Below are positions 8,745 through 33,577 of a DNA stretch of 64,000 nucleotides, piece by piece. Both the position numbers and the translations under genes were made by a program. Under the pieces are notes generated by a model, which was given only the letters and a program-made list of their open reading frames with translations, had not been told where the DNA came from and made no database searches. The DNA comes from Candidatus Saccharimonadota bacterium (lineage in GTDB: Bacteria; Patescibacteriota; Saccharimonadia; Saccharimonadales; UBA4665). Within the stretch, counting starts at the first letter, position 1; every line of letters begins with the position of its first letter. The stretch covers positions 62,001 to 126,000 of the forward strand of contig JABCZM010000003.1 of NCBI GenBank assembly GCA_013289705.1, read 5' to 3'.

Positions 8745-10310
<1,566 letters not shown>

Positions 10311-31391: not shown

Positions 31392-33263
31392 CTACCCATG
31401 CAGTGAAGTCTTGAGCACACGAGCCTTTGCCTCGTGGCCAACGGTCTTCAAAAATTCATCAATCAGCACATTTTGTGGCTCAGGCTGCACCGACATATCT
31501 TTGCGAATTCGCGGCGTCACTTGGCCAGTCTCGATTTCCTTTTCGCCAACCACAACTGTGTACGGCACCTTCCAAAGCTCGGCGTCACGAATCTTTTTAC
31601 CAACCGATTCATTAGAGTTATCGACGGTAATCCTTAGACCTAAATCTTGTGCTTTTTTGACAACACTTGCCGCAAACTCTACGGTGTTATTTTCCTGATT
31701 TACGGTGATTAAACGCACTTGCTCCGGCGCAACCCAAACCGGAAACTTACCCGCTGTATGTTCAATATAGACCGACAAAAATCGCTCGATAGAACCAAGC
31801 AACGCACAGTGAATCATCACCGGCTGCTGAGCCGTACCATCTTCGCCAACATATTCGAGTTTAAAGCGTTCTGGCTGCACAAAGTCTAGCTGCACGGTGG
31901 CAACCTGGTGCTCACGACCAATGGCATCAGTTGCCATGAAATCGATCTTTGGACCGTAAAATGCCGCTTCGCCCTCGGCCTCAAAGAACTCCAGTTGATT
32001 CGTCTTTGCTAGCTCGCGGATTGTTCCCTGGGCTTCCTCCCAAAGATTCAGTTCACCGAGGTATTTATCACTCGCATCACGGAAGCTCAAGCGGGCGCGC
32101 AACGACATACCAAGTGTCGTGTAGAGTGTTTGCACATCCGATATTAATCCCGCCACAACATCGGAAACTTGATCGCGTCGAGCATAGGCATGGCTGTCAT
32201 CCTGCGTAATTGAGCGCACTCGGCTCAAGCCACCAAGCTCGCCGGTTTTTTCATCCCGGTAGACCGTCGTTGTCTCAAAATATCGGATTGGCAAGTCGCG
32301 ATAACTCCGTGGTCGCGAAGCATAAATCTGGTTATGATGCGGGCAGTTCATAGGCTTCAGTACAAAACTATCAGAGGTTTCCTGGCTTTCCACCAGAAAC
32401 AGTTCATCGCCAAACTTATCCCAGTGCCCAGACACTTTATAAAGATCAGTCTTTGCAATATGTGGGACAAATACGCGCTCAAAGCCGGATTCGCGGCGCA
32501 ACGACTCGGCAAATAATGTCAGCTGCTCACGCAGCACAGTACCGCGCGGTGTAAACAGGGGCAAACCCGAACCAACCAAGTCCGAGAAGGTAAACAGATC
32601 CAGTTCTTTCCCCAGCTTACGGTGATCACGCTTCTTTGCCTCTTCGAGCATGTCCAAATATTGCCGAAGTTCCTTTGGGGCCTGAAAAGCCACGCCGTAA
32701 ATCCGTTGCATCTGCGCGTTCTTTTCGTTGCCTCGCCAATATGCACCCGCAACGCGCATTAGCTTAAAGGCGCCAACTTTGCCAGTTGATTCCACATGCG
32801 GCCCACGACAGAGGTCAGTAAAACTTCCATCCCTGTAAAACGACACGTTTTCGACTCGAGCATCGCCTTCGGCAATGGTACCAAGTTCATCGGCACTCAA
32901 ATCCTTGGCAACGGTTGTGCCAGCCCGCTTCAAATCATTCAAAAGTTCTTCTTTATAGGGCTGTTTTGCTTCCTTGGCCCAAGCAATTGCCTCGTCCACC
33001 GGCTTTTCGAACCGTTCAAAGGCCACATTACTTTTAATGATTTCCTGCATCTTGGCCTCAATCTTGCCAAAATCAGCCTCGGAAATCTTTTCTTCGCCCA
33101 AATCAACATCATAATAAAAACCGTTTTCCACGACAGGTCCCACACCAAACTTGGTAGTTGGCCACAACTCAGCAATAGCAGTTGCCATAATATGCGCCAG
33201 CGAGTGTCGCATGGCGTATAAATTGTCTTGTTTCTGATTTTGTTGGTTTGATTTATCTGACAT
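31392..33263 (-). CDS. thrS: threonyl-tRNA synthetase lacking the TGS domain
   Basis: 623 residues. It begins directly with the editing domain (LYAMRHSLAHIMATAI, HxxxH zinc/editing site near residues 20-24), so the N-terminal ~60-residue TGS domain of most bacterial ThrRS is missing. The class II catalytic core follows: MNCPHHNQIY with the zinc Cys, motif 2 RYFETTTVYRDEKTGELGGLSRVR, and motif 3 GSIERFLSVYIEH. Then comes the anticodon-binding domain. Shine-Dalgarno AAGGAG 11 nt upstream. It sits behind a T-box leader, so expression likely rises when tRNA-Thr is uncharged. Confidence 0.96.
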   Translation of the reverse strand: MSDKSNQQNQKQDNLYAMRHSLAHIMATAIAELWPTTKFGVGPVVENGFYYDVDLGEEKISEADFGKIEAKMQEIIKSNVAFERFEKPVDEAIAWAKEAKQPYKEELLNDLKRAGTTVAKDLSADELGTIAEGDARVENVSFYRDGSFTDLCRGPHVESTGKVGAFKLMRVAGAYWRGNEKNAQMQRIYGVAFQAPKELRQYLDMLEEAKKRDHRKLGKELDLFTFSDLVGSGLPLFTPRGTVLREQLTLFAESLRRESGFERVFVPHIAKTDLYKVSGHWDKFGDELFLVESQETSDSFVLKPMNCPHHNQIYASRPRSYRDLPIRYFETTTVYRDEKTGELGGLSRVRSITQDDSHAYARRDQVSDVVAGLISDVQTLYTTLGMSLRARLSFRDASDKYLGELNLWEEAQGTIRELAKTNQLEFFEAEGEAAFYGPKIDFMATDAIGREHQVATVQLDFVQPERFKLEYVGEDGTAQQPVMIHCALLGSIERFLSVYIEHTAGKFPVWVAPEQVRLITVNQENNTVEFAASVVKKAQDLGLRITVDNSNESVGKKIRDAELWKVPYTVVVGEKEIETGQVTPRIRKDMSVQPEPQNVLIDEFLKTVGHEAKARVLKTSLHG

Positions 33264-33289
33264 AGAGTCGTAGCTCCTTATCTAGCGAG

Positions 33290-33500
33290 AATTAAAAAGA
33301 CACGATGCTTGAATGATCTCGCAATTCATTCAAACCTCGCGTCTCGGACCCCTTTTATCTTACTAAATTGGGGTGGTTCCACCGGACTTTTTTCCAAATA
33401 ATTTCTAATCAGAAAACACTCATTGGAGTAGATTAACGTCCTACTACCTTCTACGAAGCTCCGCGGTTGGTGAATTCCGCCTCATCACCCAACTCCAACT
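33290..33500 (-). promoter_or_regulatory. T-box leader of thrS
   Basis: On the minus strand, stem I is closed by TTGGAGT/ACTCCAA (33498-33492 with 33429-33423). The T-box bulge TGGAACCA (33381-33374) lies in an antiterminator GTCCGG...CCCC/GGGG...CCG-A-GAC. A competing terminator (33343-33294) with TTGAATGA/TCATTCAA ends in T5, and its AGAC is shared with the antiterminator. UGGA would pair with the tRNA 3' end if the discriminator is U. Stem I is short (~75 nt). The specifier is unresolved: ACG at about 33440 and ACC near 33465 are Thr codons. A promoter (TTGGTC, 18 nt, TAGTAT) lies just upstream. Confidence 0.8.
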
Positions 33501-33537
33501 ATACTACAAGCCCAAAAATTTTGCGACCAATGAAAAA

Positions 33538-33577
33538 GCAGTTCAGTGATCTCGCATGTCACTGAACTGCTTTATTT
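33538..33577. terminator. bidirectional terminator
   Basis: AGCAGTTCAGTGA and TCACTGAACTGCT flank TCTCGCATG. T-runs on both strands. It isolates the thrS T-box promoter. Confidence 0.7.

Follow-up and report, generated by a model that had tools for sequence, protein, structure and literature searches.

An ultrashort T-box element upstream of thrS in Candidatus Saccharimonadota, predicted to read tRNA-Thr charging, and related elements in the CPR phylum

We have examined the leader of a threonyl-tRNA synthetase gene, thrS, from a Candidatus Saccharimonadota bacterium. The gene lies in a stretch of 64,000 nucleotides, here called the window, which is part of contig 3 of a genome of 1.24 Mb, all of which was scanned. 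The nearest named thrS relatives of the window gene are from Candidatus Saccharibacteria. Inspection of the sequence places the leader at approximately 33490-33292 on the minus strand, upstream of thrS, and gives the following order: a -10-like hexamer, a K-turn hairpin, a CGU/ACG pseudoknot with its hairpin (33455-33425), a purine-rich stretch, an antiterminator, a terminator, AAGGAG and the ATG. At the start of the window is an LSU rRNA gene (1-1908), which is cut by the window edge and has insertions relative to the Rfam model. It is separated from the SSU rRNA gene (8745-10305), and the interval holds tRNA-Ala and tRNA-Ile genes on the opposite strand. The features of the thrS leader and its gene are these:

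33498-33503, minus strand: -10-like promoter hexamer TATAGT, 7 nt ahead of Stem I; transcription expected to start at about 33491-33490
33456-33490, minus strand: ultrashort Stem I, with C-stem GGGU/GCUU, K-turn, stem GCGG/CCGC and a 10-nt terminal loop
33482-33483 and 33460-33461, minus strand: tandem G.A of the Stem I K-turn, which has the bulge GAU; the GA/GA columns are invariant in 30 leaders
33469-33471, minus strand: predicted specifier codon ACC (Thr), Stem I loop; the next base is a purine, A at 33468
33453-33455, minus strand: pseudoknot strand CGU, from covariation
33437-33439, minus strand: pseudoknot strand ACG, from covariation
33425-33448, minus strand: hairpin GG-U-AGUAG / CUACU-CC with the ACG in its loop, from sequence, in the position of a stem IIA/B element
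33388-33424, minus strand: purine string AAUGAGUG, weak stem III (UUUUC/GGAAA) and AA, from sequence
33382-33387, minus strand: A1 5' strand GUCCGG, from outer-triplet pairing among leaders
33375-33381, minus strand: T-box bulge UGGAACC, its UGGA complementary to the tRNA 3' end UCCA
33348-33374, minus strand: A2 helix ACCCC/GGGGU with a 17-nt loop, from covariation
33341-33347, minus strand: A1 3' strand CCGAGAC, the last 5 nt of which (GAGAC) are common to the terminator
33292-33345, minus strand: intrinsic terminator, a hairpin (33345-33297) with 20-nt arms (one mismatch) and the 9-nt loop AUUGCGAGA, then a U-tract
33274-33279, minus strand: Shine-Dalgarno sequence AAGGAG, from sequence, 3' of the terminator and outside the switch
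31392-33263, minus strand: thrS, threonyl-tRNA synthetase, 623 aa, the presumed regulated gene (NCBIfam TIGR00418, 617 bits, cut-off 384)

The first-pass annotation of this DNA had seen a T-box bulge, an antiterminator, a competing terminator and a closed Stem I upstream of thrS, and all four are present at 33490-33297 on the minus strand. The bulge is flanked as in an A1/A2 antiterminator (33387-33341, minus strand), in the arrangement GUCCGG-UGGAACC-ACCCC..GGGGU-CCGAGAC. The C-stem of the window element contains three G.U pairs. At the position of the purine string, relatives have AAGUG-stem III-AA or AAGUAAAAG. The minimum free energy structure of the isolated window leader favours another hairpin, GUUGGGUGA/UUCACCAAC, which would bury the specifier; this hairpin was rejected for want of conservation in relatives. 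Terminator-like hairpins with the loop TGCGAGA are found on the minus strand at window positions 33556, 33323 and 21561, and such loops hold three of the five occurrences of TGCGAGA on that strand. In 582 T-run hairpins from Saccharibacteria loci, TGCGA, GCGAG and CGAGA are the loop 5-mers that occur most often, and TGCGAGA is possibly a lineage-specific terminator loop signature.

A search of the genome with the Rfam T-box model RF00230 gave a single match, which is the thrS leader (28 bits, E = 1.2e-4). This score is below the gathering cut-off of 93 bits, and by the Rfam threshold the leader is not a member of RF00230, a model that is weighted to forms with a long Stem I. An Rfam scan of the window at gathering level reported no T-box, and a scan of nine related loci (61 kb) at E 0.01 listed none, though most of these loci carry the element. 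Since the RF00230 score was weak, lineage models were built. The thrS loci of 80 relatives were fetched, three of them without usable upstream sequence, which leaves 77. TGGNACC occurs within 450 bases upstream of the gene match in 52 of the 80 relatives' loci, and in leaders it appears almost always as GGUGGAACC with matching flanks. Covariance model R1 was made from 30 leaders and model R2 from 29, with the window left out. R2 scores the window element at 54 bits (E ~4e-10), the next match in the 1.24-Mb genome scores 14 bits, and the match at the thrS leader is the sole credible one. Together R1 and R2 place the element in 58 of the 77 Saccharibacteria thrS loci with usable upstream sequence; it is absent from the other 19. 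Strain TM7i (L080) is among the carriers. The motif TGGNACCNNC by itself matches 192 times genome-wide, against 153 for the reversed control; it is frequent by chance, and the bare motif therefore proves nothing. A search with RF00230 and an alignment of thrS leaders had both been proposed as checks. A T-box model does match, weakly in Rfam and strongly when built for the lineage, and TGGAACC is conserved in relatives. As the Rfam model misses most such leaders, their annotation needs a lineage model.

Covariation was assessed in an alignment of 30 Saccharibacteria leaders, with 22 pairs tested and 500 shuffles. The proposed structure is paired in 91% of cells and shows two-sided compensatory change in 16 of the 22 pairs. 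Doubly changed cells number 105, against a shuffled mean of 35, and none of the 500 shuffles attains any of five covariation measures, although cells count sequences and not independent events, so that the covariation numbers are somewhat overstated. When partners are slid by 1-3 columns, pairing falls to 28-40%. Covariation strongly supports both Stem I, whose two helices are paired in 91% and 98% of cells and in which all eight pairs have changed on both sides, and A2, which is paired in 89.9% of cells and has double compensation at five of its six pairs. The inner A1 is 100% paired, with invariant GG/CC. A bulge or a tandem mismatch splits GG/CC from an outer A1 triplet, for which pairing is possible in 57 of 59 leaders (mean 42 and maximum 50 in shuffles), in variants that include GUC/GAC, GCC/GGC and GCU/AGC. 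The CGU/ACG pseudoknot is 93% paired in the 30 leaders, with U-A, U.G and C-G types at its third pair, and a second pseudoknot helix, equivalent to the hairpin in the window, covaries partly (74% paired). The specifier had been left open between ACC near 33465 and ACG near 33440: the former stands, at 33469-33471, and the latter was rejected, since by covariation it is the pseudoknot strand at 33437-33439. The proposal of a T-box before thrS in a CPR-type genome is thus borne out by the lineage model and by a structure that covaries.

A plain attenuator would account for the same locus if the hairpin 33345-33297 terminated a fixed fraction of transcripts and the RNA upstream of it were passive, or the degenerate relic of a T-box. 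Such a relic would fit the weak C-stem pairs of the window element, the competing hairpin that buries the specifier, and the loss of the element from 19 of the 77 related loci. However, ACC, UGGA, the K-turn, A1/A2 and the terminator register are all intact in the window, and the element reaches its 54 bits with a model from which it was excluded; we consider this explanation unlikely.

The 5' arm of the terminator and the end of the A1 3' strand have exactly 5 nt in common in 41 of 52 leaders, and these read GAGAC, GAGGC or similar. In elements of other classes, L134 and L131 among them, the antiterminator and terminator seem, by eye, to overlap in the larger, classical manner. For the window, the terminator alone has an energy of -24.5 kcal/mol and the antiterminator alone -12.9 kcal/mol, while the antiterminator core together with a terminator shortened by five pairs has -31.9 kcal/mol. 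Because the overlap is only five nt, the antiterminator core could leave most of the terminator free to form. The last of these energies implies that the antiterminator does not abolish the hairpin and can only hold open its base, beside the U-tract; we infer that an open base is enough to prevent termination. The terminator also bears on whether the element could be a translational T-box that frees the Shine-Dalgarno sequence, as the ultrashort actinobacterial ileS elements do. Translational T-boxes are indeed known with a Stem I of this ultrashort kind (PMC7583486), but a strong terminator with its U-tract follows A1 in register in those 41 of 52 leaders, and the Shine-Dalgarno sequence at 33274-33279 lies beyond the terminator and, in the models examined, has no pairing partner within the switch. 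A translational mode is accordingly very improbable.

The codon in the Stem I loop is ACC in 55 of 59 leaders, ACG in two and ACU in two, all of them Thr codons, and the bulge has UGGA in 58 of the 59. The window genome has three tRNA-Thr species (GGU, UGU and CGU), all ending in U-CCA, and this U73 fits the UGGA of the bulge. From these sequences the predicted specifier is ACC at 33469-33471 and the predicted cognate tRNA is tRNA-Thr(GGU). The first-pass annotation had reasoned from the A after UGG to a discriminator U, which holds, and had pointed to the tRNA-Thr(CGU) in the window; the matching tRNA is instead tRNA-Thr(GGU), also with U73. A few leaders have UGGAACA, UGGAACG or UGGGACA instead of UGGAACC. 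Four loci with UGGAACA (L036, L040, L065 and L126) and one with UGGGACA (L097), all departing from the conserved ACC, have an A1 of the type UUUCGG/CCCGGAAC.

Third-position variation alone proves no codon, because every ACN is Thr; a swap across aminoacyl-tRNA synthetase genes does, and natural swapping among these genes appears to be the strongest test of specificity that the sequences offer. Sister elements in the same phylum make this comparison possible:

L214-L218 (Saccharibacteria), L219, L220, L222-L225, L175 and L138: ultrashort T-boxes before ileS, aspS, valS, proS and glyS, with codon and UGGN matched to the gene

The ileS elements, in Saccharibacteria, have AUC with UGGU; elsewhere in the phylum the codon is GAC with UGGC before aspS, GUC with UGGU before valS and CCC with UGGU before proS. 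These bulges fit the discriminators of the window genome (Ile A, Asp G, Val A, Pro A), the discriminator of the carrier genome having been compared for glyS only. The glyS element (L138), from another class of the phylum, has GGA in its loop and UGGA in its bulge; its carrier genome has a tRNA-Gly(UCC) with U73, and the tRNA-Gly of the window genome has A73. It is also the nearest in form to the thrS element (36.7 bits with R2). The sister elements resemble the thrS form in having an ultrashort Stem I with the cognate codon and a UGGN that matches the discriminator, but differ from it in their codons and in a Stem II region that is mostly longer. Autorepression by ThrRS, which would recognise its leader as a mimic of tRNA, as at the Escherichia coli thrS operator, which uses the Thr anticodon CGU, would suit the identity of the gene and the near-invariant CGU after Stem I, but is hardly credible given that CGU covaries with ACG as a pseudoknot, CGC/GCG pairs included, that the Stem I codon and the UGGN base change with gene identity in the ileS, valS, aspS, proS and glyS versions, and that an intrinsic terminator follows with no Shine-Dalgarno trap.

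We conclude, with a probability of roughly 0.9, that the thrS leader is a transcriptional T-box riboswitch of the ultrashort type, predicted to read the charging of tRNA-Thr. What can be read from the leaders themselves are the parts, their conservation, the matches of codon to gene and of UGGN to discriminator, and the five-nt overlap; tRNA binding, the sensing of charging and the direction of control are inferred from them, and the switch would operate as follows. The transcript would start at Stem I, and the loop of the K-turn hairpin would present ACC to the GGU anticodon of tRNA-Thr. If the tRNA were uncharged, its 3' UCCA would pair with the UGGA of the bulge and stabilise A1 and A2. The outer A1 would then hold GAGAC, the basal five pairs of the terminator beside the U-tract could not close, and with the terminator base open RNA polymerase would read into thrS. 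With charged tRNA-Thr the bulge would stay unoccupied, the 20-bp terminator would close, and thrS would be turned down.

A short Stem I without distal loops had been noted before, and the form proves to be reduced further, as it also lacks the S-turn of Stem II. Of 50 leaders, 35 have a TATAAT-like hexamer that ends 6 or 7 nt ahead of Stem I, and in 43 the distance is 2-12 nt. With a -10 box just before Stem I the transcript should start at Stem I itself, which leaves no room for distal loops, and the Stem I of the thrS element thus appears to be truly ultrashort. The distal loops (IDTM and AG bulge) are absent from the window element, whose Stem I ends in a 10-nt loop with a -10 box 6-7 nt upstream. 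The S-turn strand AGUAGAA/AGAAGAA is absent from all 59 thrS leaders; among 13 sister elements before other genes it is present in 8, the carriers being ileS, aspS and one valS. T-boxes with a long Stem I use a contact with the tRNA elbow, while in short ones tRNA binding depends on the pseudoknot and the S-turn of Stem II (PMC7583486). Of these short-form supports the thrS form would retain only the pseudoknot, a candidate counterpart of stem IIA/B: covariation supports an H-type pseudoknot there, formed by CGU/ACG and a longer second stem, and its homology to stem IIA/B and the F-box is uncertain. A G.U wobble at the base of A2 is described as the primary sensor of the aminoacyl group (PMC7583486). 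The basal A2 pair is G.U in 12 of the 59 leaders and mainly G-C (20) or U-A (18) in the others; in the window it is A-U. We are inclined, somewhat tentatively, to see the thrS element as a doubly reduced T-box of about 115-150 nt, without either the elbow-binding distal Stem I or an S-turn Stem II, whose affinity for tRNA would therefore come only from codon pairing, the pseudoknot and the discriminator, and which would switch by clipping only the base of the terminator, in a phylum where T-boxes would be widespread and largely uncatalogued.

Descriptions of T-boxes have placed this regulatory system mainly in Gram-positive bacteria, and the first-pass annotation had likewise taken them as scattered cases outside Firmicutes. 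This does not hold for the CPR phylum, where 132 of the 380 genomes sampled have an RF00230 match at E <= 0.01, 13 of them above the curated cut-off; about a third of the sample thus has T-box matches. R1 matches 42 of the 380 genomes sampled across the phylum, with one element each. In the 29 foreign loci examined, thrS lies downstream in all but one (glyS); some of the thrS proteins have only 37-50% identity, and in L131 two small genes stand between the element and thrS. Other CPR families have long, canonical-looking T-boxes (L154-L183, 13 above the Rfam cut-off), which precede aminoacyl-tRNA synthetase and amino-acid genes; judged by eye from translations, the downstream genes include proS, argS, tyrS and argininosuccinate synthase-like genes. 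In two further loci (L129 and L130) a T-box-like element precedes a ThrRS-like protein whose similarity to the window ThrRS covers residues 206-620, without the N-terminal region. A search of the open-licence PMC literature turned up no account of a T-box in Saccharibacteria or elsewhere in the CPR. The T-box database ran its short-stem model only on Actinobacteria and on class I hits with a truncated Stem I (PMC7778990), so that such CPR elements were probably missed; some CPR elements may be listed in databases.

CPR bacteria are tiny, mostly episymbiotic and dependent on a host for many building blocks, and to our knowledge almost nothing is known of gene regulation in the phylum. A tRNA-charging switch is a direct way to sense the supply of an amino acid. 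The thrS form also raises the question of how small a working T-box can be, since it dispenses with the two accessory tRNA contacts and with most of the overlap between antiterminator and terminator seen in classical forms.

By its anatomy and by the natural swaps of specificity the thrS element is classed here as a T-box, for which binding, sensitivity to charging and regulation are predicted. With the canonical transcriptional T-box (RF00230; Bacillus subtilis tyrS, thrS and glyQS) it shares a cognate specifier followed by a purine, the K-turn, a UGGN that matches the discriminator, A1/A2, a purine string around an optional stem III, an intrinsic terminator and an aminoacyl-tRNA synthetase target. 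It differs in a Stem I that has four pairs above the K-turn and lacks the distal loops which contact the tRNA elbow, in the lack of a Stem II S-turn, in an A1 extended across a bulge or tandem mismatch, in a terminator overlap of only 5 nt, in a basal A2 G.U that is not conserved, and in scoring below the Rfam cut-off. The ultrashort actinobacterial ileS T-boxes (TBDB class II; structures from Nocardia farcinica and Mycobacterium tuberculosis) likewise have a short Stem I that carries the specifier above a K-turn, lack the elbow module and have a pseudoknot after Stem I. However, they are translational and their Stem II S-turn clamps the codon-anticodon duplex, whereas the thrS form has a terminator and no S-turn, which places it outside the actinobacterial ultrashort class.
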